Virus record (IMG/VR): IMGVR_UViG_3300007352_000007
Coordinates: 1-47,425 of that record
From: a virus
Reading direction: 5' to 3' (one strand)
DNA: 47,425 nucleotides
The notes beneath the pieces were generated by a model, which saw nothing but the letters and a program-made list of their open reading frames with translations, ran no database searches and was not told the DNA's origin. The number at the start of each line of letters is the position of its first letter. Position 1 is the first letter of the stretch. Below are positions 4,378-27,236 of this stretch, piece by piece. The position numbers and the translations under genes are program-made.

Positions 4378-5219
4378 TGTTAATCGAAAATACGCTCTTT
4401 GGTGAGAGGGACAAGGTTAAAATAGCGATAGACCGGCTTCAAGCATTTGAGCCACCAGAGGGGTATTACCTTGCCTTTAGTGGTGGCAAAGACAGTCAAT
4501 GTATATACCACCTTGCCAAAGAAGCAGGAGTTAAATTTGATGCACATTATAATCTTACCACTGTTGATCCGCCAGAGTTGATTTACTTTATGCGAGAAAA
4601 CTATCCTGATGTGATTATTGACCGTCCTCAAACTACTATATGGAGGCTTATAGAGAAAAGGGGATTGCCGACACGAATGGCACGGTTTTGTTGTTCCGAA
4701 CTAAAAGAGCATGGCGGACAGGGACGGATATGTGTTACTGGAGTTAGGTGGGCGGAAAGCGCAAGAAGAAAAAACAGCAGAAATACATTTGAAGTGGTTC
4801 GACACGGTAAAGGAAATTCAATATTATTCAACGATAATGACGATGGCAGGTTGGGATTCGAGAACTGTGTGCGAAAAGGAAAAAGAGTTGTTAATCCGAT
4901 TATTGATTGGTCGGACGAGGATGTATGGGATTACCTTAACAATGGGGGAATAAAGCATTGTTGCTTATATGATGAGGGGTTTACTCGTTTAGGCTGTATA
5001 GGTTGTCCTTTATCGGCAAATATGGCGAGGGAATTATTAAGGTATCCTAAATTTTCCGATGCTTACAAGAGAGCATTAGAACGACATATAAAACACAGGG
5101 AGAAAACAGGACGCAAGCAATCATTTAAAACAGTAGATGATTACTGGAACTGGTGGCTTAAATCTGCATATGACGATAAAGCCATAGATGGACAAGAATC
5201 TTTAGATACGGAGGTCTGA
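4377..5219 (+). CDS. PAPS reductase-family (PP-loop) protein, 280 aa
   Basis: GTG start preceded by GGGGAGGTCTGAACGCTA. The PP-loop SGGKDS is at residues 35-40. A cysteine pair (RFCCSELK) and a second motif (LGCIGCPLS) sit where iron-sulfur or zinc ligands occur in DndC-like and phage PAPS-reductase-like proteins. The family uses ATP to adenylate a substrate. Phage members are often annotated as phosphoadenosine phosphosulfate reductase but are more likely nucleotide or nucleic-acid modifying enzymes. There is no partner sulfotransferase or Dnd gene nearby, so the substrate is unknown. Confidence 0.75.
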   Translation: MLIENTLFGERDKVKIAIDRLQAFEPPEGYYLAFSGGKDSQCIYHLAKEAGVKFDAHYNLTTVDPPELIYFMRENYPDVIIDRPQTTIWRLIEKRGLPTRMARFCCSELKEHGGQGRICVTGVRWAESARRKNSRNTFEVVRHGKGNSILFNDNDDGRLGFENCVRKGKRVVNPIIDWSDEDVWDYLNNGGIKHCCLYDEGFTRLGCIGCPLSANMARELLRYPKFSDAYKRALERHIKHREKTGRKQSFKTVDDYWNWWLKSAYDDKAIDGQESLDTEV

Positions 5220-5222
5220 ACG

Positions 5223-5324
5223 ATGAAACTATCACCACTTGAATGGTACATACTAATAGGCTGTCTAATTGGCATAGTTGTACTGATATACCTGTATGCC
5301 TGTGGTAAGCGGTGGAGGCTATGA
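5223..5324 (+). CDS. Small membrane protein, 33 aa
   Basis: Preceded by GGAGGTCTGAACG. One hydrophobic span (WYILIGCLIGIVVLIYLYA) is followed by a basic tail CGKRWRL. The TGA overlaps the next start as ATGA. Function unknown. Confidence 0.55.
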   Translation: MKLSPLEWYILIGCLIGIVVLIYLYACGKRWRL

Positions 5325-5512
5325 GTTACTACAACTACCACGCCCGCATAAAACAACTCATCACCGATGGACACCTGATAGGCCATGACATAGTTGACAG
5401 ATGGAACAGCATTAGTCCGGCATTGGTACTATATTTTGACAATCATCAGCCTATGCCGATACGGGAGTACAGATGGGAGGAATACTATGGGATTTTATCA
5501 TCCAATAATTGA
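5321..5512 (+). CDS. Hypothetical protein, 63 aa
   Basis: ATG at 5321 chosen over an upstream GTG at 5312 because it forms an ATGA overlap with the membrane peptide and follows GGTGGAGG at the usual distance. The product is aromatic-rich (YYNYHARIKQ, YRWEEYYG) without recognised motifs. Confidence 0.55.
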   Translation: MSYYNYHARIKQLITDGHLIGHDIVDRWNSISPALVLYFDNHQPMPIREYRWEEYYGILSSNN

Positions 5513-5834
5513 AAATATGAAGGGAGAAAAGGAAATGGGGCTGAATGAATTTACGAGATGGGACGTTAAGAATTGGCTTGACAAGCACACTAATGCTTGT
5601 TCACAGGAAATGCACAAATTTATCTTGCAAATGTATGACGAACTACACCCACAAGTTGAAACCCCTGTATCGTTCTTAGAGGCTTTAAAGGCGTATGAGG
5701 AAGATAAGACAATAAAATGCGCAGTAACGGGATATACGAGAACTTACACGCCCCAAAATAAAGGATTGACTGATAATATGGGTGCTTACATAACAGCCAA
5801 TGAAATCCTTAATGGTCAGTGGTACATCCTATGA
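5487..5834 (+). CDS. Hypothetical early protein, 115 aa
   Basis: The ATG at 5487 follows GGGAGGAATACT and overlaps the previous gene; a second good start at 5535 (after GGGAGAAAAGGAA) would give 99 aa. The core is polar and helical (EFTRWDVKNWLDKHTN), then SFLEALKAYEEDKTI, a pattern seen in small phage proteins of unknown role. The stop overlaps an ATG at 5831. Confidence 0.55.
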   Translation: MGFYHPIIENMKGEKEMGLNEFTRWDVKNWLDKHTNACSQEMHKFILQMYDELHPQVETPVSFLEALKAYEEDKTIKCAVTGYTRTYTPQNKGLTDNMGAYITANEILNGQWYIL

Positions 5835-5968
5835 TCCCCATCAACAATGCACGCATAAAACTGTCGATATGCCACAAGTGACTCGGATGCAATCGCCTAG
5901 AGGACGAGAAATTTACAGGGGTGGCGAAGTGTATGGCGTATGTGGAGGATAGGACGGAGAAGAAATAA
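5831..5968 (+). pseudogene. Cys-rich small ORF interrupted by an in-frame TGA
   Basis: Translation from the ATG at 5831 (ATGA overlap) gives 16 codons, a TGA at 5879-5881, then 28 more in-frame codons to TAA at 5966. Read through, the cysteine pattern is ICHK-stop-LGC...KC. A cysteine codon (TGT/TGC) at the TGA would make CxxCxxC, the usual zinc pattern of such phage peptides. The simplest reading is a one-base nonsense mutation; readthrough cannot be excluded. Confidence 0.5.
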
Positions 5969-5987
5969 ACTTTGTGAGGTAGGGTAT

Positions 5988-6749
5988 ATGGCGATATACA
6001 GATTAGTACATATCAGTTTTTGGCAAGACGGTTTTGTGATTGATCTAAAGCCAGAGGAAAGGTATTTTTATCTCTATCTTATGACCAATAGCAAAACCTC
6101 ACAATGTGGCATATATGAATTTAATAAAAAACTTGCCATGATAGAAACAGGATACAGTATAGATAGACTATCCCAACTGTTAACAAGCTTTATTAAATAT
6201 AAAAAAATACTCTATGATGACAAGACCAATGAGGTAATATTGCTTAATTGGTTAAAACATAATTCACTCAAAAGCCCAAAGGTAAAAAGTTGCATACTTA
6301 AAGAACTGCAAAGCGTGAAGAATAAGGCGTTTGTAGACTTGTTTTATAAATTGTGCGACAAGTATGGATACAGTATAGATAGACTATCCATAGACTTGGG
6401 GGAAAAAGAAGAACCAGAAGAAGAACCAGAACAAGAAGAAGAACAAGAAGAAGAACAAGAAGAAGAACAAGAAGAAGAACAAGAAGAAGAACAAACGGCG
6501 AATCCCAAAATACCCTATGCCGAATTTGTAACCATGACCGAAGATGAATATCAAAAACTTATTGATAAGTATGGTGAGGTCAATACAAAAAAAATGATAG
6601 ATATACTGGATAACGCTAAGGGTGCTAAGGGTTATAAATACAAGTCTGATTACAGAGCGATATTGTCATGGGTAGTGGATAAGGTGAAACAGGATAAACC
6701 TGAATCCGGCAATCTGTTTTTCAATATGTTGGAAGGGGGCAAGGTATGA
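5988..6749 (+). CDS. Replisome organizer / replication initiation protein, 253 aa
   Basis: ATG at 5988 chosen because it follows GTGAGGTAGGGTAT and begins with the family-typical MAIYRLVHISFW. The N-terminal winged-helix-like domain (1-130) is that of phage replisome organizers. A low-complexity E/Q linker (about 140-169) follows, then a conserved C-terminal domain (MTEDEYQKLIDKYG, YKSDYRAILSWVV). Family knowledge: such proteins bind the phage origin, often inside their own gene, and load helicase with the next gene product. The gene contains a 24-bp exact direct repeat and a 12-bp VNTR. Confidence 0.85.
   Translation: MAIYRLVHISFWQDGFVIDLKPEERYFYLYLMTNSKTSQCGIYEFNKKLAMIETGYSIDRLSQLLTSFIKYKKILYDDKTNEVILLNWLKHNSLKSPKVKSCILKELQSVKNKAFVDLFYKLCDKYGYSIDRLSIDLGEKEEPEEEPEQEEEQEEEQEEEQEEEQEEEQTANPKIPYAEFVTMTEDEYQKLIDKYGEVNTKKMIDILDNAKGAKGYKYKSDYRAILSWVVDKVKQDKPESGNLFFNMLEGGKV
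6150..6389 (+). repeat. Pair of 24-bp exact direct repeats inside the replication gene
   Basis: Bases 6150-6173 and 6366-6389 are identical over 24 bp; the core ACAGTATAGATAGACTAT is flanked by GGAT and CC. Each encodes GYSIDRLS. The ends (GGATA/TATCC) are inverted, so each unit is partly symmetric. Exact identity over 24 bp between two different parts of the protein is not required by the coding sequence, so these are candidate origin iterons. Confidence 0.6.
6435..6494 (+). repeat. 12-bp VNTR encoding EEEQ x5
   Basis: Five perfect GAAGAAGAACAA units in the linker of the replication initiator encode an EEEQ pentad array. The purine-only bias suggests slippage-prone growth. It may simply tune linker length. 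Confidence 0.9.
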
Positions 6750-7294
6750 ATAAACAAGAAACAATAATGACATTGGGGCTGATGAAAACAGCATACCCGG
6801 CATTTTATAAGGACATTAAGCCGAAAGAGGCAGAGGAAGCAGTAAAGTTATGGTCAATGATGTTTGCGGGGGATAATCCGAATGTCGTTATTGAGGCGGT
6901 TAAGTCATTGATCTGTACTTTGAAATTTCCCCCAACAATAGCGGACGTAAAAACAAAGATGTATGAGATTACAACGCCACCAAGCATGACGGAAATGGAA
7001 GCCTGGAATAAAGTGTTTCAAGCGATACAGGATTCTAATTATCGGGCGGTGGAGTGTTTTGAGGTATTGCCTCCAGTGATCCAAAAGGTTATTGGCAGTC
7101 CGAATCAATTACGGGAATGGGCCATGATGGACATCGAAACAGTAAACAGCGTGATACAGAGCAATTTTATGAGGTCATACAAAGTTGTGCAGCAAAGAGA
7201 ACAAAGTAGGGCTATGTTGCCGGAATCTACTAAGCAGATGATTGAGGCATTAGCAGAAAAAATGGCTTTACCAGAATACACAGGGGAGGGATAA
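6746..7294 (+). CDS. Replicative helicase loader/inhibitor, 182 aa
   Basis: ATGA overlap with the initiator gene, preceded by GGGGGC. Residues 1-75 (ETIMTLGLMKTAYPAFYK, VKLWSMMFAGDNP, FPPTIADVK) match the G39P/G40P-loader fold of SPP1-type and related phages, and the helical C-terminus contains a WNKVFQAI segment. The family binds the host or phage DnaB-type helicase and hands it to the initiator-marked origin. No phage helicase gene is visible, so the host helicase is probably recruited. Confidence 0.85.
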   Translation: MNKQETIMTLGLMKTAYPAFYKDIKPKEAEEAVKLWSMMFAGDNPNVVIEAVKSLICTLKFPPTIADVKTKMYEITTPPSMTEMEAWNKVFQAIQDSNYRAVECFEVLPPVIQKVIGSPNQLREWAMMDIETVNSVIQSNFMRSYKVVQQREQSRAMLPESTKQMIEALAEKMALPEYTGEG

Positions 7295-10735: not shown

Positions 10736-11281
10736 TCAACCCTCCTTTAAGTAGCGGTAAAGTGTAGTAGCACTAACACCTGTAAATGATTTTATTTCAG
10801 ATATAGATTTACCAGCATTATATAGCTGTGTTGCCTTTTCGATGCTTTTACTGTTTTTCCGTGGCCGCCCTCCGTTTCTCCCCCTTGATTTGGCGGCGGC
10901 CATACCCTCCTTTGTACGCTGAACGATGGTATCACGCTCGAACTCACACAGGGCAGACAATATACTTGTTATCAGTTTTCCTGCGGCTGTGTCCGTGCTG
11001 ATACTCTCCTTGAGCGATACAAGTTTTATGCCTTTTTCGTCAAATGTGCTGATTAGTGTTAGTAAGTCTTTTGTGCTACGACCTAGACGGCTAAGACTTT
11101 CGATGACAACCGTGTCACCTTTACGGGCTTGCAATTTAATCTTGTCGAGTTCCGGTCTATTGGCGCGAGTACCTGTCATTTTTTCGGTGTATAGCGTATC
11201 TATGCCGTATTTGGTGAGCGCGTCAATCTGGCGATCAAGACATTGTTCATCTGTGGATACTCTAGCATAGCCTATTATCAT
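10736..11281 (-). CDS. Serine recombinase (resolvase/invertase), 181 aa
   Basis: The N-terminus has the catalytic serine in YARVSTDEQ (Ser about 9), and the arginines of SLSRLGRSTKDL and EFERDTIVQRTKEG are in place. The C-terminal HTH_7 (ISEIKSFTGVSATTLYRYL) is complete. Length fits Tn3-resolvase and Hin/Pin-type enzymes. Because the element also carries ParM/ParR, one possible role is dimer resolution of an extrachromosomal prophage, as Cre does in P1. DNA inversion is the alternative, but I saw no flanking inverted crossover sites. It is transcribed against the phage genes on both sides. Confidence 0.9.
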   Translation of the reverse strand: MIIGYARVSTDEQCLDRQIDALTKYGIDTLYTEKMTGTRANRPELDKIKLQARKGDTVVIESLSRLGRSTKDLLTLISTFDEKGIKLVSLKESISTDTAAGKLITSILSALCEFERDTIVQRTKEGMAAAKSRGRNGGRPRKNSKSIEKATQLYNAGKSISEIKSFTGVSATTLYRYLKEG

Positions 11282-13176: not shown

Positions 13177-14706
13177 ATGGATAAACAAGCAGAGTTAAAA
13201 TATTGGCAAGATAGAACAGCCGAGTTAATCAATAAAGCCATAGAGGAATTTGAGAAGGAATCCCAACACAATAGGCTTCTTCTTTACAATAATGAGGATT
13301 ACTGCCAGCTTAAGGGGAAGGGCATACACAAGAAACAAGTTGAGTTCCATACTGATTCCCATAGATTAAAAGCCATATTCGGCGGTAACAGGGTAGGTAA
13401 GACGGTAGCGGGCGCGGTAGAGGCCGTATGTCATACTATGGGCTGGAGTAAGTACAGGGAGCTGAAACCTTCATCCGGCTGGGTAGTGAGTTTGACTAAC
13501 GAAGTCCAGCGTGATGTAGCACAGCGAGAAATTTTAAGGTGGTTGCCGAAGGAACAGATCAAGAACATCATAGTAAGACACGGCAAGAAGGATGACCCGA
13601 TAAACGCCATCATAGATAAGATAATTTTAAAGAACGGTCAGACGATAGGCTTTAAGACGGTAGAGCAGGGTCGTGAGAGTTTTCAGGGAACCTCACAGGG
13701 TTGGATATGGTTTGACGAGGAACCCACACAGGAAGTCTTTGACGAGTGTAAAATGAGGATCATGGACACACGGGGTGATATATGGTTCACCATGACCCCG
13801 CTTAAAGGTTTGACGTTTGTTTACAACGTGGTCTATCTGAATGAGAACAATGACTCTGATGTGAAGTATTGGCTGGTAGAATGGGAAGATAACCCCTGGC
13901 TGTCGCTGGAAGAGATAAATAAACTCGTTGCCACCATGACACCAGAGGAACGTGAAGCACGACAGTACGGACGGTTTAGTTCGTTGTGCGGGTTCGCGTT
14001 CCAGATGAAGGAAGAAGTACATTTGAAGGACAGTATTGGTTCCATACCCGAATGGTATCGCAAGTATGTCACCATAGACTACGGCTTAGATTCCACGGCA
14101 GTGTTGTGGATTTACGTTGATGAACAGGGGTTCGCAAGGGTCTATAGAGAGTTTGAACAATCCAATTTGATCATATCGGAAGCGGCGAAGATTATTGCGA
14201 AGCTGACGAAAGAAAACATACATCATTATTATGCCCCGCCGGATTTATGGAATCGCAGGAACGATACGGGCAAGAGTGCAGCAGATATTTTCATCGAGCA
14301 TGGCATTAGGCTGACCAAGACCTCCAATGACAGGGTAAAGGGTTGGATGAATGTCCGAGAATGGTTGTTGCCTGTTGAGTTAAGGGATGAGCAGACCGGC
14401 GATAAGTACAAAACGGCTTACCTGACTTTTGACAAGGGCAGTTGCCCTAAGTTGTGGAAGTGTATGAACAATATCCAGAAGTCCGACAAGGATCCTGATG
14501 ATGTTGCAAAAGAGCCTCATAACATAACACACTTACCTGATAGCTTACGGTGTTTTTGTGTACATCGTCCACGCAGGAGTGCGGAACCATCAGCACCATT
14601 AAAGGGTGAGTGGTTGTATACGGAGTTGAAACTGAAAGGTTATAAGGAACACGAAATCGACCGCTTGGAGAAAAGCGGAGTAAGGGTGATAGGGAAGTGC
14701 CAATAG
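13177..14706 (+). CDS. terL: Terminase large subunit, 509 aa
   Basis: Walker A GGNRVGKT at 69-76 and Walker B WIWFDEE at 176-182 (catalytic Glu following), with a coupling motif WFTMTPLKG. The C-terminal RNase H-like nuclease starts around TIDYGLDSTAVLW. Normal length. It drives ATP-dependent DNA packaging into proheads through the portal encoded at 21659. No good Shine-Dalgarno site is visible, only GGAGCGTT. The portal is unusually far away because a 7-kb cassette intervenes. Confidence 0.95.
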   Translation: MDKQAELKYWQDRTAELINKAIEEFEKESQHNRLLLYNNEDYCQLKGKGIHKKQVEFHTDSHRLKAIFGGNRVGKTVAGAVEAVCHTMGWSKYRELKPSSGWVVSLTNEVQRDVAQREILRWLPKEQIKNIIVRHGKKDDPINAIIDKIILKNGQTIGFKTVEQGRESFQGTSQGWIWFDEEPTQEVFDECKMRIMDTRGDIWFTMTPLKGLTFVYNVVYLNENNDSDVKYWLVEWEDNPWLSLEEINKLVATMTPEEREARQYGRFSSLCGFAFQMKEEVHLKDSIGSIPEWYRKYVTIDYGLDSTAVLWIYVDEQGFARVYREFEQSNLIISEAAKIIAKLTKENIHHYYAPPDLWNRRNDTGKSAADIFIEHGIRLTKTSNDRVKGWMNVREWLLPVELRDEQTGDKYKTAYLTFDKGSCPKLWKCMNNIQKSDKDPDDVAKEPHNITHLPDSLRCFCVHRPRRSAEPSAPLKGEWLYTELKLKGYKEHEIDRLEKSGVRVIGKCQ

Positions 14707-14875: not shown

Positions 14876-15349
14876 ATGCTGCCGACAAAAGAAAAGTTTG
14901 AAGAAATGATAGAGATACTTCAATGTATCATGCGGATTCAGGATTGGGATATAAGCCTACGATTAATCAATGACCATGAGATGCAGGGTATATACGGTAA
15001 AAAGTCAGAAGGTTGTAACGTCATGGATAAGCAGAATATGCACTCCGTCATATACCTCAATACAGACTTAATAGATACTAAGACATCAGACTTTGAATCC
15101 TTTGGGTGGTACAATGTCCTGATACATGAAATGATGCACATTATACACATAACGCTTGATGATTGGATAGAGGAACACTTATCCAAAGACCACTGGGCAA
15201 ATTATGAACTAGAGATGGAACGAAACCTTAATAGATTTGCAAGGGTTTTTATATCGGTTTATCCTGCTGAAAGTTTATTGGAAGGGTGTGAGGAAAACGA
15301 AGATTCTGATGTTGGACAAGATTCATCAGGATGCACAGAAAGTTATTGA
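14876..15349 (+). CDS. HExxH zincin-like protein, 157 aa
   Basis: Residues about 90-96 read LIHEMMHIIH, containing the zinc-protease motif HEMMH, in a small protein with an SprT/ImmA-like layout (alpha-beta N-terminus, HExxH helix, acidic C-terminus). The N-terminal part (DWDISLRLINDHEMQG) fits small phage zincins. A host-factor or virion protease role is possible but untested. The C-terminal acidic 20 residues are low complexity. Confidence 0.6.
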   Translation: MLPTKEKFEEMIEILQCIMRIQDWDISLRLINDHEMQGIYGKKSEGCNVMDKQNMHSVIYLNTDLIDTKTSDFESFGWYNVLIHEMMHIIHITLDDWIEEHLSKDHWANYELEMERNLNRFARVFISVYPAESLLEGCEENEDSDVGQDSSGCTESY

Positions 15350-16091
15350 GGATATTGCAGAGTTTGAGTATCTTCAATTCTACGGACTTAATGAAAATGT
15401 TTATTCCGCAGTCTATACACAATTGACACCGATTAAAACTAATCTACCAGTTTTTTGCCCCTGTACTTCAGTTGAACACATCAAAGCACCGAAGGTCATT
15501 CACCTTGACGATGAGTGGAAAGCAACAGAGGGCAAGAAGATAACCTCTACCGCAGAGCATACATGGTCGCTGATATTGCAGTTGGCGAAAAAAGCACGGT
15601 TACAGTTAAAAGACAAGATGATAGGCATTATAGGTTATGGCAGACTGGGTAAGATGATAGGCAAGTATGCGGATGCTTTCGGTATGACAATCTACGACAT
15701 AGACAGGAAACAAGAGAAAAGTTACGGTATGTTTTACCATGACTACTACGAATACATCTTAGGCAATTCAGACGTTATAACGATAAACATTCCCTTGAAG
15801 GGTAATGAAGGGATGTTTGGTAAGGCAGATTTTGAACTGATGAAACCTGGCGCATTGTTGGTGAACACTTCACGGCAGGGCGTTATAAAGGTTGACGAGT
15901 TGATACCATTCATTGAAAACGAGTACATCTACTATGCAGACGATTTCCTTAATGATGTGGAAATACCTGGTGCTATCCAGACACCCCATGTCGGGGGGAA
16001 CTCGAAGGACGCTAGAAGGTTGACTGATATTTATATTGCAGAACAAATGAGAAAGTATTTGGAGGGATTATGTCTAGCAAATATGAATTAG
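15288..16091 (+). CDS. D-2-hydroxyacid dehydrogenase-like protein, 267 aa
   Basis: GTG start at 15288 follows TTGGAAGG. The Rossmann motif GIIGYGRLGKMIGKYADAFG binds NAD(P). The catalytic set is present: Arg in NTSRQG, an acid in YADDFLND and His in QTPHVGG. The N-terminal substrate domain is short, so the protein is about 50 aa smaller than typical PGDH or formate dehydrogenase relatives. Likely reaction: 2-keto acid to 2-hydroxy acid. Its presence beside Neu genes hints at a sugar-acid or modified acyl precursor, which is inference. Confidence 0.82.
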   Translation: MRKTKILMLDKIHQDAQKVIEDIAEFEYLQFYGLNENVYSAVYTQLTPIKTNLPVFCPCTSVEHIKAPKVIHLDDEWKATEGKKITSTAEHTWSLILQLAKKARLQLKDKMIGIIGYGRLGKMIGKYADAFGMTIYDIDRKQEKSYGMFYHDYYEYILGNSDVITINIPLKGNEGMFGKADFELMKPGALLVNTSRQGVIKVDELIPFIENEYIYYADDFLNDVEIPGAIQTPHVGGNSKDARRLTDIYIAEQMRKYLEGLCLANMN

Positions 16092-16414
16092 CGGTATTAA
16101 CAAAGGAGTTTTTTGAATTAAGAGGAAGAGTAGAAAAATTAGAAAGGAAAGTATACGATCTAGAAAATCCAATAAGGTACACTGACCAGAACATCGGTAT
16201 AAGAGGCAATGAAATATATTTTAATGGGAACGTCTTGGCGTTGAAACCACACCCCGAAATGGTAAACGCAATAAGGTATAAAGAAAATGACAAGGTTGAA
16301 AATGCGGAAGTTTCAGGTAATGATATTATTGTTACGATGAAAAGCGGGGACGTATTTCGAGTTATAAATTATTATAATACAAAAAATATCAAAGTGGAGA
16401 GGGAAACCGTATGA
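16070..16414 (+). CDS. Hypothetical protein, 114 aa
   Basis: Overlaps the dehydrogenase by 22 bases. The N-terminal coiled coil (TKEFFELRGRVEKLERKVYDL) is followed by beta-rich sequence. It looks like a trimerising coiled coil with a small beta domain. Function unknown. Confidence 0.6.
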   Translation: MSSKYELAVLTKEFFELRGRVEKLERKVYDLENPIRYTDQNIGIRGNEIYFNGNVLALKPHPEMVNAIRYKENDKVENAEVSGNDIIVTMKSGDVFRVINYYNTKNIKVERETV

Positions 16415-17322
16415 GTTGTATTCTCTGCGGGTCCACTGATTATGAAGTCATATGGGATAAGATAGAACGAGAGAAGAAGGGGATATTAAGGAGTGTGGTT
16501 ATCCGTGATAACCTTGGTAACATTCTTAACGGCACTAATGTTATTTGCCGTGGTTGTGGTCTCATATATGTTGTTAATAGAATGGATAGACAGGAACTCA
16601 TAGACTTTTACGAGAACGATTACAGGAACATATACGGCAAGGCTACGAGTTTTAATGCAAGCATACATCTGCACGCAAGGCACGCTTTGGAATGTATGAA
16701 AGACGTTGGCGTGAAACGTGGTGCGAAAGTGCTTGATATCGGATGTGCGGTAGGGACATTTCTGGAGGGTTGCAAAGAGTATGACGCTTTTGGTATAGAA
16801 CCTAATAAGAAAACCTACGAGATAGCAAGAGAGAATAATTTAGATGTAGCCAATACGACAATAGAGGAATTTAATCCTGCATCCAAGTATGACCTGATAA
16901 GTCTGCAAAATACTCTTGAACATTTGTATGATCCCATAAGCGTGATACAAAAAGCAAGAAATATATTGACAGATGACGGACTTTTGTTGATATCCGTACC
17001 CAATGTATTAACTTGTGTGCATTGGTTGGCGGTAGATGCTTTCATGTCCTGCGCTCATTTGTTCGCTTTTTCACAATTAACACTTGTCCAACTAATGTTA
17101 AAGTGCGGATTCAGGGAACACGCAACCTATACTTACTTTGAGAGCATGGGTGAGAAGCTATATTGTTTCTTTAAAAAGTGTGAACCGCAGACACCACAGT
17201 TCATAAAGCCCGATGTTGAGAAATACAAGAGATTTTTAAGCGCGTGGGACGATACAGCAATGGCAAACTACGACATAAAATACCGATTTGATGGACTGAA
17301 ATCCCCATTAATAAATTTGTGA
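16411..17322 (+). CDS. SAM-dependent methyltransferase with N-terminal zinc-binding domain, 303 aa
   Basis: The N-terminus carries CILCGS and CRGCG cysteine pairs (zinc). Then comes a class I SAM motif, AKVLDIGCAVGTFLEG, with an acidic residue in FGIEPNKK, and the later motif LISLQNTLEHLYDP. This order is that of sugar C-methyltransferases of the NovU/TylC3 type and related Methyltransf_13-containing enzymes, which act on nucleotide or polymer sugars. In context it might decorate the nonulosonic acid or its acceptor glycan. Confidence 0.78.
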   Translation: MSCILCGSTDYEVIWDKIEREKKGILRSVVIRDNLGNILNGTNVICRGCGLIYVVNRMDRQELIDFYENDYRNIYGKATSFNASIHLHARHALECMKDVGVKRGAKVLDIGCAVGTFLEGCKEYDAFGIEPNKKTYEIARENNLDVANTTIEEFNPASKYDLISLQNTLEHLYDPISVIQKARNILTDDGLLLISVPNVLTCVHWLAVDAFMSCAHLFAFSQLTLVQLMLKCGFREHATYTYFESMGEKLYCFFKKCEPQTPQFIKPDVEKYKRFLSAWDDTAMANYDIKYRFDGLKSPLINL

Positions 17323-17329
17323 GGTGAAT

Positions 17330-18055
17330 ATGACAAAAATCATAGCCGATGCCTGTTGCAACCATCTAGGCAATAGGCAATTCATGGAAGAAATGATAAT
17401 CCAAGCTGGTAAAATAGGGATTGATTACATAAAATTCCAAGCATTTAAAGCTGATAATCTTAATAAAAACTGGCCTGACTTTGAAAAATCTTATGATTAC
17501 TACAAAAAAGTTGAATTACAGAATGATGATTACTCCTTTATCGTGGAAAAGTGCAAGGAAAGTGGGGTTAAACCTCTTTTTACGATATTTTCAAAGGAAT
17601 TGGCACTGGTTATTGGCGTGTTGGGGTGCGATACAGTTAAAATTGCCTCTCCTGACGCTGATAATGATAGGTTGGTGGATTTTTGCATCCAATATTTTAA
17701 CCATGTGATAATCAGTACAGGTATGACGGACGATAAAAACATATATAAGTTAAGCCAATACCCTAATGTATCACTTTTATACTGTATATCACGTTATCCT
17801 GCGCCCAAAAGCGAAGTTGACTTTGATAAGATGACGCTACTTGGCGGGTTTTCAGACCACACACCTGACATTGAGTGTGCGAAAAAGGCCATAAAACAAG
17901 GTGTGGAGTGGTTGGAAAGACATTACACGCTTGGGAAGTATCTTCCTGGCAAAGACCACTTATTCAGTAGCACACCAGACGAATTTAAGGAACTTGTTGA
18001 TTATCGAAATTATTTAGATAAATGTCAAATTTATAAGATGAGGTGGATGGGGTGA
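17330..18055 (+). CDS. neuB: N-acetylneuraminate/nonulosonate synthase (NeuB-like), SAF domain missing, 241 aa
   Basis: ATG at 17330 follows GTGAGGTGAAT. Motifs of the NeuB TIM barrel run in order: CNHLGN, IDYIKFQAFK, VKIASPDADN, VIISTGM, LLYCISRYPAP, GGFSDHTPDI, then LERHYTLG and PGKDHLFSSTPDEFK. It condenses an N-acetylated hexosamine (ManNAc type) with PEP. Cellular NeuB is about 340 aa with a C-terminal SAF (antifreeze-like) domain; this protein ends after the barrel and its barrel is compact. It overlaps the next gene by GTGA. Confidence 0.88.
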   Translation: MTKIIADACCNHLGNRQFMEEMIIQAGKIGIDYIKFQAFKADNLNKNWPDFEKSYDYYKKVELQNDDYSFIVEKCKESGVKPLFTIFSKELALVIGVLGCDTVKIASPDADNDRLVDFCIQYFNHVIISTGMTDDKNIYKLSQYPNVSLLYCISRYPAPKSEVDFDKMTLLGGFSDHTPDIECAKKAIKQGVEWLERHYTLGKYLPGKDHLFSSTPDEFKELVDYRNYLDKCQIYKMRWMG

Positions 18056-18408
18056 TTTGTCATAGGTGTAAGAAGGAATTTAAAGATATTAAAGAATTAA
18101 AGGAACATTTAGGGAAAGAACATGAATTGAGGTTGGAAGAATTTGACCCTGATTCCTATATTTATGTGGAAAGTGCTTATGTTAAAGACCGTGATATGTT
18201 GATATTGGGGTTTGATAAGGCTAATAAAATTGATGAGAAAGAATTTGAGATTGTTAATTTTATTGTTAAGGCAAAACTTCAAAAAGGTTCTAATAAAATC
18301 GTTCAACTCTTTATAGAAAACGCACATATACATTGTGATTTACACTCTTATGAGCAAATCATACAAAAAAAGATGGAGGTAGGTAATGTCAACAAAGAAA
18401 GATGTTGA
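18052..18408 (+). CDS. C2H2 zinc-finger small protein, 118 aa
   Basis: GTG start at 18052 (GTGA overlap) follows GAGGTGGATGG. Residues 1-27 form a C2H2 finger: CHRCKKEF followed by LKEHLGKEH. The remainder is beta-alpha without recognised motifs (MLILGFDKANKID). C2H2 fingers of this kind occur in some phage late proteins. Function unknown. Confidence 0.6.
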   Translation: MICHRCKKEFKDIKELKEHLGKEHELRLEEFDPDSYIYVESAYVKDRDMLILGFDKANKIDEKEFEIVNFIVKAKLQKGSNKIVQLFIENAHIHCDLHSYEQIIQKKMEVGNVNKERC

Positions 18409-19495
18409 AGCTGTTGTTAAGGAAGTACAGGAAGGTAAGGTTAAGATATCAGACCCCGCAATACCGCCACAGCAATTAAGGGAATCACCCTTGAACACAG
18501 AACAGATGAAACGTGCGGTGGGATTTGCACAAAAGCTACCGAAAGAATGGGAAGAAATACTACCCACGAAAAAGTATATTAAACTGCCACGCAAAACCGA
18601 TAAGGTGGCAATAGTGGGATTTGCTAACTCATGGAACAAAGCACCATATAATGACCCATCGTTTGAGATTTGGGGCATAAACGAACTTTACAAGTATCTG
18701 CAATCAATACCTAATGGTAGAGCCGATAGATGGTTCGAGATACACGATATACGGAACTCACCTAGTAAACAGAGGCCGGAACATCAGAAATGGTTAAAGA
18801 GTGCTAAGATACCCATTTATACATGGGATCACTATGACGATATGCCAGGAACTGTACCATACCCCAAAGACGATATTCTGAACAAACTGAAAGAAGTAGT
18901 ACCGTTTGGTTATAGGTATTTTACTAATCAGATTTCATGGATGATAGCTTTGGCATGGTATGAAGGATTCAAAGAGGTACATATCTATGGCGTTAACATG
19001 GCAACGGACTCGGAGTATAGTTTCCAAAGGCCATCCGTAGAATCGTGGGTGTTCTTCTTACAGTGCATGGGTATAAAGTATTACCAGCCTCCCGAATGTG
19101 ACCTATTATCGAATCCTGGAGGCTTACTGTACGGTTTTGAATCCGACAATAAGGCTTGCGTGCTTGTCAAACAGCGTATAACCGATCTAAAGCCAAAGGG
19201 TGGTGCATTACATACACAGAGGGCAACGGCAGAGTTTAAGCGTGATGAGATTTACAGACAACTGCGAAACACCGAAGGATATATCACTGGTGCGACAGAT
19301 GCTCTAAACTCACAATCGCGTGAAGAAGTGGAACGGTTGATAAAACATAAGCATATGGAATTGAATAAACTCGTGCCTACATTCACACAGTTGGATGAAA
19401 CTATTAAGAATTGCGACATACACACAGCACAAATGCAGGGTGCTTCGGGTGCTTATAGTGATGTACTGAATCATATTTTAAGAGGGCCACAGTGA
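18386..19495 (+). CDS. Putative GT42/DUF115-like glycosyltransferase, 369 aa
   Basis: Residues 70-90 (KVAIVGFANSWNKAPYND, then FEIWGINELY) form a nucleotide-binding strand-loop. FTNQISWMIALAWYEGFK and HIYGVNM follow. This order (VGxx, WGxN, NQISxxxAxAxxxGYKE, xxGxxM) resembles bacterial GT42 sialyltransferases such as Cst-II and the related phage/MptE-like fold. The GT42 catalytic histidine region is not clearly present, so activity is uncertain. A C-terminal coiled coil (about 280-350) may dock it to another protein. It lies between NeuB and NeuC/NeuA and is the natural candidate transferase. Confidence 0.55.
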   Translation: MSTKKDVEAVVKEVQEGKVKISDPAIPPQQLRESPLNTEQMKRAVGFAQKLPKEWEEILPTKKYIKLPRKTDKVAIVGFANSWNKAPYNDPSFEIWGINELYKYLQSIPNGRADRWFEIHDIRNSPSKQRPEHQKWLKSAKIPIYTWDHYDDMPGTVPYPKDDILNKLKEVVPFGYRYFTNQISWMIALAWYEGFKEVHIYGVNMATDSEYSFQRPSVESWVFFLQCMGIKYYQPPECDLLSNPGGLLYGFESDNKACVLVKQRITDLKPKGGALHTQRATAEFKRDEIYRQLRNTEGYITGATDALNSQSREEVERLIKHKHMELNKLVPTFTQLDETIKNCDIHTAQMQGASGAYSDVLNHILRGPQ

Positions 19496-20598
19496 AGATA
19501 CTTTTAGCGGTTACGAATCGTGCGCCGTGGGGCAGGATGAAAGCGGTTGCTCAAAAGATAAAAGAGTCACATACCTTGCAGATAATCGCTGCTGGTTCAA
19601 TGTTATTGGACAAGTATGGTGAGGCTGTTGAGGTAATGGAGAATGAGGGGTTTATCCCCAATGAGAAAATCCATTACAAGGTAGAGGGTGACACTCCCCA
19701 CATAATGGGGCTGTCAACGGGATTTTTCCTGATAGAGATATGTAATGCTTTGGAACGATTAAAGCCTGATATAGTGATTGCACACGCCGATAGGTATGAA
19801 CAGATGGCGGTGGCGACAGCAGCCTCTTACATGAATATTCCCCTTGTACATACGCAGGGCGGGGAGGAAACGGGAAGTATTGATGATAAGGTAAGAAACG
19901 CTATCACACAACTTGCCGACATACATTTCCCCGCAACAGAAAAGAGTGCCGACAGGATAAGGGCCATGGGTAAAGACAAGGTATATAATGTCGGATGCCC
20001 GTCCATAGATTTGATTGCAGGGGTAGACCTGACACACAAGCCCGAAGATATAAACGATTCCCATTTGTATGGTGGTGTGGGTGCTGAAATCGACTTGACA
20101 AAGCCGTATATTGTTGTGATGTTTCATCCCAACACAAGAGAATACGGAGAAGGTGAGTTCCAAGCCAATGAGATATTGACTGCGGTGAATAAGTTGGATA
20201 TCCAGACAGTATGGTTTTGGCCTAACATAGACGCGGGGAATGACGAGATTTCAGGTTATATCAGGAAGATGCGTGAACTGGGGTTGTGTGACAAGATAAG
20301 GTTCGTGAAGAATTTACCGCCGTTGAAGTTTTATAAGCTGATAAATAACTGTTCGTTGTTCATAGGTAATTCCAGTTCAGGTATAAGAGAAGGTTCATAT
20401 CTTGGAGTTCCTTATGTATGCATAGGCACACGACAGGATAAACGAGAACACGGTTTTAATACTGTAAGGGTGGGTTATTCATCAGGCGAGATATTTGATT
20501 ATGCGGAAAAGATGATAGGCAAGAAACACGCGAGAGATTATACGTTTGGAGATGGTACGGCAGGAGAGAAAATTATCAAGATATTGGAGGAATTATGA
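19492..20598 (+). CDS. neuC: UDP-N-acetylglucosamine 2-epimerase (NeuC/WecB-like), 368 aa
   Basis: GTG start in a GTGA overlap. The GT-B-type epimerase pattern is clear: LKPDIVIAHADRYEQMA, TQGGEETGSIDDKVRNAI, VMFHPNTREY, and NSSSGIREGSYLGVPYVCIGTRQDKREHG. The last segment binds the UDP part. Normal length. It makes ManNAc (hydrolysing form) or UDP-ManNAc from UDP-GlcNAc; with NeuB adjacent the hydrolysing form is the likelier one. Confidence 0.88.
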   Translation: MKILLAVTNRAPWGRMKAVAQKIKESHTLQIIAAGSMLLDKYGEAVEVMENEGFIPNEKIHYKVEGDTPHIMGLSTGFFLIEICNALERLKPDIVIAHADRYEQMAVATAASYMNIPLVHTQGGEETGSIDDKVRNAITQLADIHFPATEKSADRIRAMGKDKVYNVGCPSIDLIAGVDLTHKPEDINDSHLYGGVGAEIDLTKPYIVVMFHPNTREYGEGEFQANEILTAVNKLDIQTVWFWPNIDAGNDEISGYIRKMRELGLCDKIRFVKNLPPLKFYKLINNCSLFIGNSSSGIREGSYLGVPYVCIGTRQDKREHGFNTVRVGYSSGEIFDYAEKMIGKKHARDYTFGDGTAGEKIIKILEEL

Positions 20599-21230
20599 TA
20601 CTTGGTATTATACCAGCCCGTGGAGGTTCAAAGGGCATAAAGGACAAGAACATATATCCTTTATGTGGTAAGCCGATGATAGAGTACACAATACAAGCAG
20701 CAGAAAAAAGTATGCTTGATGACTGGTTCGTTTTCACTGATAAGTACACTGAATATAAAACATACGGTATCATACGCCCTTCCAAAATGAGTAAGGGTAA
20801 GAAGGAAGATATATTCACATGGTTGCCGTATGCGATAGAGCAATATGAACTCATGTTTGACAAGTGTGTGGATGCGATAATGTTATTACAGCCCACAAGC
20901 CCGTTACGGACAGTGAACGACATTGACGGGGCTATTGAATGTTTTAATGATAACCAGTTGATAGAGTCCGATAGTTTGTATTCGGGATATTTACTGAGAT
21001 TGAAAACTAAGGACAAAAGATTCAACAAAGCAACAGACAAAGCACACTTTCAGAGGAATGGTGCGATATTCATAACACGCAGGGATTTACTCAACAAAGG
21101 TAAGCTATGGAGCGATAACGTAATCGAATATGTGATGCCATCATACAGGAGTGTTGATGTTGATGACATGGATGACGTTTTCATAGCGGGAAGTATATTG
21201 AAAAACGGAGGGCTACATGGTTATAGTTAG
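20595..21230 (+). CDS. neuA: CMP-nonulosonate (CMP-sialic acid) synthetase, NeuA-like, 211 aa
   Basis: ATGA overlap after TTGGAGGAAT. The cytidylyltransferase P-loop IIPARGGSKGIKDKN is at residues 5-19, LLQPTSPLRTVNDID follows, and the FQRNGAIFITRRDLL segment is as in KdsB/NeuA enzymes. Slightly shorter than N. meningitidis NeuA (about 228). It activates a nonulosonic acid with CTP. With neuB and neuC it completes a de novo CMP-sialate-type pathway. Confidence 0.9.
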   Translation: MILGIIPARGGSKGIKDKNIYPLCGKPMIEYTIQAAEKSMLDDWFVFTDKYTEYKTYGIIRPSKMSKGKKEDIFTWLPYAIEQYELMFDKCVDAIMLLQPTSPLRTVNDIDGAIECFNDNQLIESDSLYSGYLLRLKTKDKRFNKATDKAHFQRNGAIFITRRDLLNKGKLWSDNVIEYVMPSYRSVDVDDMDDVFIAGSILKNGGLHGYS

Positions 21231-21402
21231 TTTAATTTTTTCTACAATAGCATTATGCTTTTGTGTTTTCTTGTTACTGGAGAGGTTGGGTAAGGTGGTA
21301 ATCGTAGAGAAGAAGGATGATAAGAAATCCCTTTACCGTGACCCGCAGACTGGTATGTTGAACAAGTCCATGACCCCGCCTGAATCAAGGGTTAAAAGAT
21401 GA
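21217..21402 (+). CDS. Small N-terminally anchored membrane protein, 61 aa
   Basis: The start lies 14 bases inside neuA. One long N-terminal hydrophobic span (VSLIFSTIALCFCVFLLLE) is followed by a basic soluble tail (KKDDKKSLYRDPQTG). It could tether something to the membrane. Conserved position unknown. Confidence 0.55.
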   Translation: MVIVSLIFSTIALCFCVFLLLERLGKVVIVEKKDDKKSLYRDPQTGMLNKSMTPPESRVKR

Positions 21403-21569: not shown

Positions 21570-21591
21570 AGCAGAGTAGAGAGTCCATTAG

Positions 21592-21639
21592 AGACCGTTT
21601 TATTGTTTGATTTCACAAACAATAGGACGGTCTTTTTTT
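21592..21639 (+). terminator. Very strong intrinsic terminator at the end of the metabolic cassette
   Basis: An 18-bp stem (21592-21609 with 21616-21633, two G-U pairs) with a six-base loop is followed by six or seven T. It separates terminase plus the Neu cassette from the portal operon. No promoter is obvious in the 20 bases before the portal start, so readthrough or antitermination is implied. Confidence 0.85.
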
Positions 21640-21658: not shown

Positions 21659-23494
21659 ATGAAAAGAGATAGATCGAAATTTATGACAGAGGATGAAATC
21701 AAAGAAGCCGATAATGTCATATCGCAACTTAATTCTAACCGTTATATGGTTCAGGATATCTTTGATGACTGGGATGAGATTGTGGAATATTATTCCAATG
21801 AACAGCCAGAGGTCAAGAATGTACCCAACTCCAAAATAAACAGATTCCATGCCAACATAGAAGGTCAGGTTACGGCATTGGTTGAACAGAACCTTGCGAT
21901 AACTTGTAAAGGGCAGGGGCCGTCTGACAGGGGATTTGCGAATTGGGCGCAGATAGGGCTTGACTGGACGTTGCGTAAGAACAATATCAAAACCAAGCTG
22001 ACTATACACGAAAGACGCAGGGAGTTGTTTGGTAATGGCGTGTTCGGACTTTCCTTTGACCCTAAAGCGATAAATGGTTTCGGACTTGTCACCATTAATC
22101 CGACACCTCTTAATAAGTTATACGTTGATATTAAGATAAAAGATCCTTTAAGGTTCCAGGAAGCGGAATACATCGCTGAAACCATTACGATGAGTAAACA
22201 GCAGTTCATTGACAGGTACGGCGAGGAAAAGGCTGAAATGGTCGAGTACGGGAAGTATGTGGATTTTCGTGACGGTGGGATATTCACCGAATTGCAGAAC
22301 GTGGATGATGAAAACTCATCCGTATTGATTCTGTACTGGTCACGTCAGGATGGTAAGTTGAGGTTAAGAGAGTATTCGGCTTGCGGGGTTCTATTGTATG
22401 ACTGTCACAAAAAGGGTGGACGTAAGGACAATCAGAAAAAGTCAGAGGAAGAAATCAAGTCTTATTACAACTATGTAAACGACAAGTACCCGTATTTCTA
22501 TACGATAATGTACCCAGTAGAGGGAAGGTTACAAGGGTTCGGTAATGGTAAGTTGTTGCTTCCATTACAGAAACTTTTAAATGAACTGTACGACAAGATC
22601 CGTATAGCTTCAAGACCTAACATAGTTCTTTATGACCCCGACATTATCCAGAGTGACCTATCAGACTTTGACGAGAACTCATTGAACCCACGACCTGCAG
22701 ACTTAACCTCCGGCAACGGTACACCGATTATATCCGTACCGTGGATGCAAGTACAGCCGGATTGGTGGGCGTTGCTTAAACAGATAGAGGAAGAAATACA
22801 ACACGTTTCGAGGTTTTCGTCATTGATGCTTGGTATGTCCGGCAAGAGGGGTGACCAGACCGCAACAGAATCAGCAATACAGCAACAGCAGGGACATAAC
22901 GCCATTGACCATCAAAAGATTTTACTGCAGGAAACACTTGTTGAGTTGTGCCAGTACGCATTGGGGCTGATGATGGATAACTACACATCAGGCAAGGCGT
23001 TCAGGCTGGACGAGAACAAAGAAGATTATGAATGGATAGACTTCCGCGACATGACAAAAGTGCCTGTAATGAAACCTGTTACGAGTGCTTACGAAGAACA
23101 GTACACGAAAGCTCGTCCTGGTGCGAAGAAACCTAAGTTTGAGCCAGCCATGGGACGAGACGGGAAGCCGCTTACTAAGTCTGTGGATCTGGATATTGAG
23201 ATAAATATCGGTGCTGGATTGCCAAAGAATAAGGCGTTCTTGTATCAGATGATGGCACAACTGGCACCCGTACAGATAGGCGGGAAACCATTGGTGGAAT
23301 GGTCAGAAATGAGAGCCTTGATGAAAGATTGGCTGGGGCTTCCATTGAACGATGACCAAGAAGCACAGTTGAAAATGATGGTACAGCAGTATCAACAGCA
23401 ACCACAACAGTCACAGCCACCTAGTAATCCGTTGGTTAATGCCAACAATCCGAGTGGTGGGCTAATCCAGCAACAGGGGATGGTGGGTGGCTGA
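21659..23494 (+). CDS. Portal protein, P22-like, 611 aa
   Basis: Preceded by AAGGAGTTGATCGG. Features of podophage portals are visible: an N-terminal helical leader (FHANIEGQVTALVEQ), the crown/stem part LGMSGKRGDQTATESAIQQQQGH around residues 395-417, and a Gln-rich C-terminal tail (QQYQQQPQQSQPPSNP). About 611 aa is within the family range. It forms the dodecameric DNA gate and terminase dock. P22-type portals together with gp4- and gp10-like genes argue for short-tailed virions. Confidence 0.85.
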   Translation: MKRDRSKFMTEDEIKEADNVISQLNSNRYMVQDIFDDWDEIVEYYSNEQPEVKNVPNSKINRFHANIEGQVTALVEQNLAITCKGQGPSDRGFANWAQIGLDWTLRKNNIKTKLTIHERRRELFGNGVFGLSFDPKAINGFGLVTINPTPLNKLYVDIKIKDPLRFQEAEYIAETITMSKQQFIDRYGEEKAEMVEYGKYVDFRDGGIFTELQNVDDENSSVLILYWSRQDGKLRLREYSACGVLLYDCHKKGGRKDNQKKSEEEIKSYYNYVNDKYPYFYTIMYPVEGRLQGFGNGKLLLPLQKLLNELYDKIRIASRPNIVLYDPDIIQSDLSDFDENSLNPRPADLTSGNGTPIISVPWMQVQPDWWALLKQIEEEIQHVSRFSSLMLGMSGKRGDQTATESAIQQQQGHNAIDHQKILLQETLVELCQYALGLMMDNYTSGKAFRLDENKEDYEWIDFRDMTKVPVMKPVTSAYEEQYTKARPGAKKPKFEPAMGRDGKPLTKSVDLDIEINIGAGLPKNKAFLYQMMAQLAPVQIGGKPLVEWSEMRALMKDWLGLPLNDDQEAQLKMMVQQYQQQPQQSQPPSNPLVNANNPSGGLIQQQGMVGG

Positions 23495-25061: not shown

Positions 25062-25073
25062 GAGTTGATAATT

Positions 25074-25643
25074 ATGTGGAAAATCGTTAATGGGGCGCAG
25101 GAAAATCCCGTAAGGAAAATGATTGCGTCCAGCACAGCGAGCATATACACCACTGACGTTGGTAAACTCGTATTTGAATCGTCTGGTCGTGCAAGATTGG
25201 TGACAATCGGCACTTCCACGGGTTCAACCGAGCCTTTGGGTTCAACGAGTGGTGGACTTGCCGGTATTGTAGCTGTTATGCCGGCAAATGCAACAGCAGA
25301 TTCAACAGCGATAGTTTATGTACAGCCTCTTACTCCATATGACGTATGTGAGGGTAATTATACCACAGCATCGTCTGATGGCGCAGGAGCGATGGCGAGT
25401 GACTGGGTGACAACGACAAACCTTGGGCTGGTGTTCAAGTTTGTTGCACAGGAATGTTCATCTGGTTCTACTTATGCCTCAACCGCAGGGTCGACTTGGG
25501 TACAGGATTGGATTACTGCTTCAACGGCAAGTGTTTCTGGTTCTACCCTTGGTGCGTTCATTTTGACTGATTTCTCAACGGTCAATAAAACAGTGCGTGG
25601 TACATTCGCCCCGAACTTGTTCAGAGGGCTTGTGACTACCTAA
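25074..25643 (+). CDS. Capsid-associated (decoration-like) protein, 189 aa
   Basis: ATG at 25074 after AGGAGTTGATAATT. Ser/Thr/Gly/Ala-rich beta-sheet protein (STGSTEPLGSTSGGLAG) with TVRGTFAPNLFRG near the end. Composition is that of decoration or head-fibre proteins between scaffold and coat; no precise family. Its many Ser and Thr residues would be possible glycan acceptors, which is inference only. Confidence 0.6.
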   Translation: MWKIVNGAQENPVRKMIASSTASIYTTDVGKLVFESSGRARLVTIGTSTGSTEPLGSTSGGLAGIVAVMPANATADSTAIVYVQPLTPYDVCEGNYTTASSDGAGAMASDWVTTTNLGLVFKFVAQECSSGSTYASTAGSTWVQDWITASTASVSGSTLGAFILTDFSTVNKTVRGTFAPNLFRGLVTT

Positions 25644-25662: not shown

Positions 25663-26565
25663 ATGGCATATACAGTAACCTCAGATATTGCTAGAAGTGT
25701 AGCCGACCAACAGAAAGACTACTTCTACAATAACTATGAAGCATACCCCCTTGAATACCCTATGATAAGCACGGAGTATGAAGGGGTAAAAGAAACGGAA
25801 ACATTTGACACGATGGGTAACCTTTCTGCCGCGTACACAAAGACAGAGGGTATGCCTCTGACTTACGGTTCGGTCAGGGAGGCGTACCAGACCTCCGTTA
25901 AGTCTGTAACAAGAGGTAACGGATTCTCTATCACGCAGGAGGCTATGAAGTTCGACCTTAATAAGTGTCTTGACCCCGCAAGGGCGAAGGAACTTGCAAG
26001 AACCATGAGGGACTTGGAAGAGGAAACATTGATAGCGCATTTTGACAATGCCTTTACGACTAACCTCGCAACAGGCGTACCCAAATGCTCGAACAGTGTT
26101 CCTTGTAAAGATGCTCCTGGAACAACCAATGACACATTGGCAACAGCTTCATCCTTGACAGATCCTGACAACCACAAATCCATGATACAGATGTTTGCAC
26201 AGTTCAAAAATCATCAGGGTAAGCCCATGCCCTCAAAAGCGACTGATGGCTTGACACATTACTTGAATCAGTTCGACATTGAGGAAGTTTACGAATCCGA
26301 CAAGAAAGCCGGGCTGACTGTAAACACAAAGAACGTCCTGCCATCAGCAAGGATAAATTGGCATTATTCACATCGTTTGAATGATACCAACGCTTGGTTC
26401 ATGTGGGATAACTCATTCGTCCATGCGATATTCGTATGGTGGATGAAAACGCAGTTCACTGATGAGATTGACTTCGACACGAAGAATCTCAAATTGGCTG
26501 CAATCGCTATGCACAATTCCTGTATGATTCCTAACGTCGGATTTGCGGGGAATCAGGGCGCTTGA
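25663..26565 (+). CDS. Major capsid protein, 300 aa
   Basis: Strong GGAAGGAGTGAAAG site. The order scaffold, decoration, coat and a strong terminator just after the gene fit the main capsid subunit. Helical E-loop-like sequence (TLIAHFDNAF) and a beta-rich C-terminal half with conserved aromatic residues (WFMWDNSFVHAIFVWW) suggest an HK97-fold coat. Length normal for podophages and siphophages. Confidence 0.82.
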   Translation: MAYTVTSDIARSVADQQKDYFYNNYEAYPLEYPMISTEYEGVKETETFDTMGNLSAAYTKTEGMPLTYGSVREAYQTSVKSVTRGNGFSITQEAMKFDLNKCLDPARAKELARTMRDLEEETLIAHFDNAFTTNLATGVPKCSNSVPCKDAPGTTNDTLATASSLTDPDNHKSMIQMFAQFKNHQGKPMPSKATDGLTHYLNQFDIEEVYESDKKAGLTVNTKNVLPSARINWHYSHRLNDTNAWFMWDNSFVHAIFVWWMKTQFTDEIDFDTKNLKLAAIAMHNSCMIPNVGFAGNQGA

Positions 26566-26580: not shown

Positions 26581-26606
26581 AAGGGCGGTTAAATAATCGC
26601 CCTTTT
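26581..26606 (+). terminator. Terminator after the major capsid gene
   Basis: AAGGGCG (26581-26587) pairs with CGCCCTT (26598-26604), followed by TTATT. It may lower downstream transcription relative to the coat gene, so that coat RNA is most abundant. Confidence 0.75.
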
Positions 26607-26633
26607 ATTATGCTTTGAATCGAGGTGAAAAAA

Positions 26634-27236
26634 ATGAAAATAGAACAACGTGAGGGCATTTACATCAATGGTACGACTAATGGCAGTACGGACTTGACTG
26701 TACTAGACTCCACGGGTGCGTTGTACGGCAATGGTATCTATGCGCGTTCCGGTTCGACTGCGGTACAGGTGGCGAGTTCTACGGGACTAACCTATAACCA
26801 AGGTGTACCTATTGCGTATGTCGAAACCGTTGCGGTAACGTCTGCTGGTGCAAGCCCTTCAACGGTAACGCCGTATGGTTTGACCTATTGCGTGCCTAAC
26901 ACAACGGGCGGTGACTTCTCAACGTCAGCAAGGACTATTGTAGTGGGTGCGCCTATTCCAGGTGTACCAAAAGTGATACGTTGGGGCTCTACTGGTGCCT
27001 CTGCTAATACGCTGTGGGTTGACTTAACAACTAATTGCGGAGTAATGGATTCGACTGGTGGTTCAAGCCACCGCTATATATCATTCTCCACACTAGGGAC
27101 ACAGCCACAGACATTGAACCTACTGGGTATTTCAACATCAGTATGGATGGTAACAAGTGTTGATTCGACCATACCGGGCTTTGAAAATGCTGCGGGTGGT
27201 ATACACGCGGAAGCAGCCGTCGAATCGTCTGGTTAA
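26634..27236 (+). CDS. Ser/Thr-rich structural protein, 200 aa
   Basis: ATG at 26634 with GAGGTG 7 bases upstream; an in-frame GTG lies just before it. Beta-rich, T/S/G-rich (TTNGSTDLTVLDSTG) and no domain recognised. Together with the next genes it forms a group of beta-rich surface-like proteins downstream of the coat gene. Confidence 0.6.
   Translation: MKIEQREGIYINGTTNGSTDLTVLDSTGALYGNGIYARSGSTAVQVASSTGLTYNQGVPIAYVETVAVTSAGASPSTVTPYGLTYCVPNTTGGDFSTSARTIVVGAPIPGVPKVIRWGSTGASANTLWVDLTTNCGVMDSTGGSSHRYISFSTLGTQPQTLNLLGISTSVWMVTSVDSTIPGFENAAGGIHAEAAVESSG

Follow-up and report, generated by a model that had tools for sequence, protein, structure and literature searches.

A conserved gene set for predicted CMP-nonulosonate synthesis in a phage lineage and its possible role in the glycosylation of head proteins

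The virus record IMGVR_UViG_3300007352_000007 of the IMG/VR database (47,425 bases, taken as a whole and hereinafter called the window) carries, between the genes for the large terminase subunit (TerL) and the portal protein, a cassette encoding homologs of NeuC, NeuB and NeuA, the enzymes of bacterial nonulosonic (sialic) acid synthesis. This cassette is real, conserved and selected: it recurs at the same place in a lineage of divergent phages and is accompanied there, either in the cassette or next to the capsid gene, by a gene for a predicted GT42-like transferase. We estimate at roughly 0.57 the probability that these phages encode a de novo cytidine monophosphate (CMP)-nonulosonate pathway together with a cytoplasmic transferase dedicated to it, by which head proteins are glycosylated.

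In the proposed mechanism, NeuC would hydrolyse and epimerise uridine diphosphate (UDP)-N-acetylglucosamine (UDP-GlcNAc) to N-acetylmannosamine (ManNAc); NeuB, here devoid of the C-terminal SAF (antifreeze-like) domain, would condense ManNAc or a close relative with phosphoenolpyruvate (PEP) to yield a nonulosonic acid; and NeuA would activate the latter with cytidine triphosphate. The soluble GT42/Maf-like protein might then place the nonulosonate on Ser/Thr residues of head proteins before or during assembly, as Maf does on flagellin. The sugar is probably modified, or provided with a substituent, by a 2-hydroxyacid dehydrogenase and, in about half of the lineage, by a methyltransferase.

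Enzymes of the predicted pathway

Judging by homology, the three synthesis steps attributed to NeuC, NeuB and NeuA are well supported. A preliminary description of the window had placed neuB, neuC and neuA homologs and a methyltransferase gene between terminase and portal and had proposed a route from UDP-GlcNAc through ManNAc and Neu to CMP-Neu; profile searches bear out the gene assignments (Table 1), and the family matches together with the conservation of the genes throughout the lineage support such a route through a nonulosonate to CMP-nonulosonate. The accompanying statement that all main motifs are present has to be restricted, since in NeuB the SAF domain is missing and two Glu residues are replaced by Asp. 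NeuC and NeuA score above the respective family cut-offs. The best match of NeuC in the PDB is human GNE (4zht, E 9.2e-56). Residues of the D100, E122, D131 and H212 type are those that we take to be catalytic in NeuC, and the protein of the window keeps D100, R101, D131 and H212. NeuA matches the CMP-NeuAc synthetase 6ifd in the PDB (E 3.4e-16), and its R9, S12, K18, N19, QPTSPLR motif, D190 and D194 are nearly invariant across the lineage.

The NeuB homolog consists of 243 amino acids that form a single domain, the TIM barrel (141.9 bits against PF03102); because this domain alone is present, the protein remains below the cut-off of the full-length equivalog family TIGR03569 (139.8 vs 399.65 bits). 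Its structural model (pLDDT 96.6) is most similar to 6ncs (Z 32.6) and, in general, matches sialic acid synthases (6ncs, 2wqp) with Z of 30-33, compared to about 20 for DAHP/KDO8P synthases. Lys53, Glu134 and His236 presumably belong to the active site of meningococcal NeuB, which likewise includes Glu25, Gln55, Lys129, Ser213 and His215 (PMC6795526). In the phage protein, the metal and PEP residues K37, Q39, K106, H179, H200 and D211 are kept, as is S177; the deviations at catalytic positions are D9 and D111 of NeuB and Q122 of NeuC, which are considered below.

When 67 NeuB proteins were placed in a tree, the 16 from the lineage formed one clade (support 100/99) that is separate from the main bacterial NeuBs and adjoins bacterial NeuBs without SAF (loci L197, L200 and L201) and NeuBs of two further phage contigs (L046 and L047). 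The signature of the lineage clade comprises D9, D111 (L186 has Glu here) and, at the C-terminus, a tail of the form Y/F-x-x-R-W/aromatic, which reads YxxRW in the window. The NeuB of Leptospira borgpetersenii (6ncs) and those of loci L197-L201 are, like the phage protein, TIM barrels without SAF, but the bacterial SAF-less NeuBs have Glu at position 9, whereas D9 and the YxxRW tail characterize the phage clade. The contigs L046 and L047, from another phage group, encode NeuB, NeuC and NeuA-like proteins along with a GT42-like protein. Relatives of NeuB occur in no fewer than 522 stretches of viral contigs, with apparently bimodal lengths in the loci fetched (about 230-300 amino acids without SAF, and 320-360 amino acids).

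The list of pathway genes in the preliminary description was incomplete because the gene for a D-2-hydroxyacid dehydrogenase also belongs to the set. Its open reading frame (ORF) opens at 15237 and the likely start is the ATG at 15309. Wherever a lineage contig extends over this place, the gene lies 5' of NeuB, and R213, H251 and the nicotinamide adenine dinucleotide motif of the protein are nearly invariant. About half of the lineage has the methyltransferase (L171, L173, L174, L175, L176, L177 and L186). Among bacteria, locus L201 combines NeuC, NeuB and NeuA with the dehydrogenase, and L199 has the order NeuB-NeuA-dehydrogenase-methyltransferase; both additional genes therefore resemble pathway genes, which suggests that a modified nonulosonate is made. 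Since the dehydrogenase and the methyltransferase travel with the set, the product is not necessarily plain N-acetylneuraminic acid (Neu5Ac), so that of the originally proposed synthesis of Neu or Neu5Ac the nonulosonate route stands but the sugar may be a different one.

Conservation of the cassette in a phage lineage

When NeuC, NeuB, the portal protein and the 369-amino-acid GT42-like protein were searched as single sequences against viral contigs, no matches were obtained, but alignment queries succeeded, and the relatives described here come from such alignment-based scans of IMG/VR viral contigs. The cassette was found at the same place in 14 of the 17 contigs with a related portal protein, mostly at 45-57% portal identity, in the order dehydrogenase, (methyltransferase), NeuB, (GT42-like), NeuC, NeuA and portal, and with TerL on the 5' side wherever the contigs extend far enough. 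The three contigs without it are two distant relatives, L181 and L182 (portal identity 28-33%), and the fragment L172, which has a related but fragmented portal gene and no cassette in its 11 kb and is not counted either way. In L172 the portal gene (4997-6838) is divided among several ORFs, and it may be broken, misassembled or written in a different code. Further cassette contigs were recovered through NeuB (L089, L186, L190, L191 and others). The TerL genes diverge strongly between some of the phages that share the cassette, and the cassette persists.

In the pair L169/L178, the ratio of nonsynonymous to synonymous substitution rates (dN/dS) is 0.125 for the dehydrogenase, 0.044 for NeuB, 0.101 for NeuC and 0.064 for NeuA, compared to 0.062 for the portal gene; these low values indicate that the cassette genes are under purifying selection. 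The preliminary description considered such a gene set unusual; it is not isolated but a constant trait of a phage lineage, and more than 500 stretches of viral contigs contain homologs of NeuB. A one-off acquisition of the cassette was rejected given its conservation throughout the lineage.

The GT42-like protein and the head genes

For the 369-amino-acid protein, an AlphaFold model was built from 58 aligned sequences (pLDDT 81, above 90 in the core). The top Foldseek match is CstII (E 1.9e-4), and the structure comparison yields Z of 10.7 for CstI (171 residues, root-mean-square deviation 3.7), 10.2 for Maf (5mu5) and 10.1 for the archaeal HPPK 8sd5; mammalian sialyltransferases match as well, at lower rank, and Z of about 10 exceeds the unrelated rows of the comparison. 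The model thus gives the protein the GT42 fold, a shared fold that does not show activity, and it supports the initial guess of a GT42-like protein, with CstI/CstII and Maf among the best matches. The phage protein has the core fold in common with the GT42 sialyltransferases CstI/CstII and with Maf, but differs from all of them in the lack of a significant sequence match and in the long C-terminal helix; the catalytic His188 of the Cst enzymes has no obvious counterpart in the EYxxQR motif of the phage protein. N99 resembles Asn31 of CstII and, along with E100 and H133, is invariant in 14 of 14 lineage members and mixed in the wider family.

Each of the 15 cassette contigs of sufficient length for the test has the GT42-like gene. 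It is located either within the cassette (the window, L167, L171, L173, L183, L089, L190 and L191) or a short distance 3' of the capsid gene (L168, L169, L174, L176, L177, L180 and L186), 1.5-3 kb past the start of the latter and in several cases following the counterpart of the Ser/Thr-rich protein 3' of the capsid gene. The genes of both arrangements belong to one lineage clade (98/98). In other phages, the wider family is flanked by genes for the major head protein, the prohead protease and the head-tail adaptor. This neighborhood ties the putative transferase to the head and, in the present lineage, to a nonulosonate donor.

Virion proteins are the favoured target because the transferase is linked to the capsid. 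The proteins flanking the capsid protein are rich in Ser/Thr in the relatives examined too, with the exception of the post-capsid protein of L176; the pre-capsid orthologs contain 22-27% Ser+Thr, and the proteins at that place in cassette-less relatives contain 16-20%. A strong hydrophobic segment is absent from all pathway enzymes of the cassette and was found only in a 61-amino-acid protein encoded after NeuA (21217-21402).

Alternative explanations and the purpose of the cassette

Several observations weigh against a functional pathway that serves head glycosylation. NeuB ends after the barrel and accordingly lacks not only SAF but also Arg314, which in meningococcal NeuB is contributed by this domain to the active site of the partner subunit and is important there (PMC6795526). 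In the alignment, Asp9 and Asp111 occupy the sites of meningococcal Glu25 and Glu134, and position 122 of NeuC is Gln in the window and in L173 and Glu in 17 of the 18 lineage relatives. None of the 58 members of the GT42-like family matches a relevant Pfam family, the link to CstII is insignificant in the PDB profile search (E 0.9), and the fold recurs in archaeal HPPK. Furthermore, most phages with a GT42-like protein have no neu genes nearby, so the donor there must differ, and specificity of the 369-amino-acid protein for sialic acid was rejected for this reason. Finally, the Ser/Thr fraction of head proteins in cassette-less relatives (0.16-0.26) overlaps that of the cassette phages, which makes the Ser/Thr-rich head proteins weak evidence; after this control with L181 and L182, Ser/Thr richness was dropped as proof of acceptors, and what favours the earlier suggestion of glycosylated virion proteins is instead the link between the transferase and the capsid.

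Alternatively, the cassette could alter the surface of the host, either at a late stage of infection or in lysogens, for instance to block superinfection or the adsorption of progeny to debris, with the GT42-like protein acting on an envelope glycan. CstI and CstII act on lipooligosaccharide, and the bacterial sets with the dehydrogenase (L201) and additionally the methyltransferase (L199) lie, as read from the sequence, among genes resembling glycosyltransferases, in loci like surface polysaccharide clusters. The cassette, however, contains no flippase, polymerase or membrane enzyme and sits among structural genes, and the transferase accompanies capsid genes in the lineage and beyond; we regard host-surface modification as unlikely, at perhaps one chance in five. 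Less probable still is that the nonulosonate serves another role, such as a virion-internal or DNA-packaging conjugate, and that the GT42-like protein is no longer active as a transferase and functions as a head-assembly factor. The occurrence of the wider family in the head modules of phages that lack neu genes and the sharing of the fold with non-transferases would fit an assembly factor, but only within the cassette lineage do N99-E100 and H133 show no variation, which would be expected of a partner adapted to a given donor, and no GT42-like gene was found in the stretches read of the cassette-less L181 and L182. The patchy presence of the methyltransferase is what one might expect of host genes acquired recently and carried without selective maintenance; the single clade, the fixed place, dN/dS of 0.04-0.19 and the conservation across a divergent lineage make this explanation highly improbable.

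Glycosylation of the virion is thus the best-supported purpose of the cassette, still unproven. A more specific version is offered tentatively, at somewhat below even odds: the lineage may synthesize a nonulosonic acid of its own, which might be new and would be modified by the dehydrogenase and partly methylated, and may O-glycosylate its head proteins with it by means of the NeuB lacking SAF and of a GT42/Maf-like transferase family linked to the capsid, which is widespread in other phages with other donors.

Other features of the window

The cassette genes overlap or abut head to tail on the plus strand up to a terminator-like hairpin. Neither the SprT-like protein nor the 61-amino-acid ORF, which has no family match, is part of the pathway. 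A PHROG search with the portal protein gave no match, and no portal relative was found in bacterial hosts in a genome collection of 84,980 species. Another terminator-like hairpin lies directly 3' of the capsid gene (26581-26604).

Table 1. Features of the cassette and the adjacent head genes in the window
Feature	Position	Strand	Evidence
TerL, upstream border of the cassette	13177..14706	+	PHROG phrog_2, E 1.9e-30
SprT-like protein (weak), directly after TerL	14876-15349		HExxH motif (HEMMH)
D-2-hydroxyacid dehydrogenase-like protein, cassette member	15309..16091	+	PF02826, E 2.2e-23
S-adenosylmethionine-dependent methyltransferase with N-terminal Cys pairs	16411..17322	+	PF13489, E 5e-18
NeuB-like nonulosonate synthase, TIM barrel only	17324..18055	+	PF03102, E 2.9e-41
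Small C2H2-like zinc-finger protein	18043..18408	+	zf-C2HE, E 2.9e-5, below cut-off
GT42-like protein (369 aa; core about 70-243; long C-terminal helix), candidate nonulosonate transferase	18386..19495	+	Structure model
NeuC-like hydrolysing UDP-GlcNAc 2-epimerase	19492..20598	+	TIGR03568, 330.2 bits vs cut-off 235.9
NeuA-like CMP-nonulosonate cytidylyltransferase	20595..21230	+	PF02348, 55.9 bits vs cut-off 22.6
Strong terminator-like hairpin (20 pairs and T tract), separates cassette from portal	21590..21635	+	
Portal protein, downstream border, lineage marker	21659..23494	+	Place, length, conserved order TerL-cassette-portal-capsid in relatives
Ser/Thr-rich (27%) protein 5' of the capsid gene, possible acceptor	25065..25643	+	
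Major capsid protein, possible acceptor	25663..26565	+	PF25209, E 6e-6
Ser/Thr-rich (26%) protein 3' of the capsid gene, possible acceptor	26625..27236	+	

The ends of the window share a 36-nucleotide repeat unit (1-36 and 47245-47425), with tandem repeats of 27 nucleotides at the right end; the record may be circular or may have been cut within a repeat gene. Profile scans identified an actin-like ALP/ParM-type protein (42535-43398, minus strand) and an FtsK/SpoIIIE-like ATPase (41054-42289, minus strand), and an ORF at 10736-11281 (minus strand) reads like a serine resolvase. Equipped with these genes, the phage might be maintained in the manner of a plasmid.

Relation to known systems and implications

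The bacterial neuC-neuB-neuA sets of E. coli K1, Neisseria and Campylobacter comprise the same three enzyme families with the expected chemistry, but the phage cassette differs from them in the SAF-less NeuB with the E25D and E134D replacements, the constant dehydrogenase and the lack of membrane machinery for polysaccharides. To our knowledge, phage-encoded virion glycosylation is limited to a few phages, and we know of no phage-encoded nonulosonate pathway described for the glycosylation of mycobacteriophage virions. A precedent for the proposed mechanism is Maf, which attaches nonulosonates, among them Neu5Ac, to flagellin by O-glycosylation of Ser/Thr (PMC11339370). According to the passage of PMC11256854 that cites Freeman et al. 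2023, mycobacteriophages (Che8, Rita) glycosylate their own virions, a system that is likewise phage-encoded but employs other transferases. A NeuB-like gene is present in Stenotrophomonas phage DLP4 (PMC6469090) as well, but as a lone gene of the lysis module whose product has a membrane segment. No case of a full CMP-nonulosonate pathway in a phage lineage was found described in the open-access literature.

If the proposed pathway and its virion target are correct, sialic-acid-like sugar coats on the virions of bacterial viruses would represent a new phage surface chemistry, which could affect how stable the virions are, how they adsorb to mucus or hosts and how they are recognized by the immune system. 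The natural clade of SAF-less, D/D-type NeuBs would allow a direct test of the roles of the SAF domain and of Glu25/Glu134, and the capsid-linked GT42-like family could serve as a sequence marker for glycosylated capsids in many phages.

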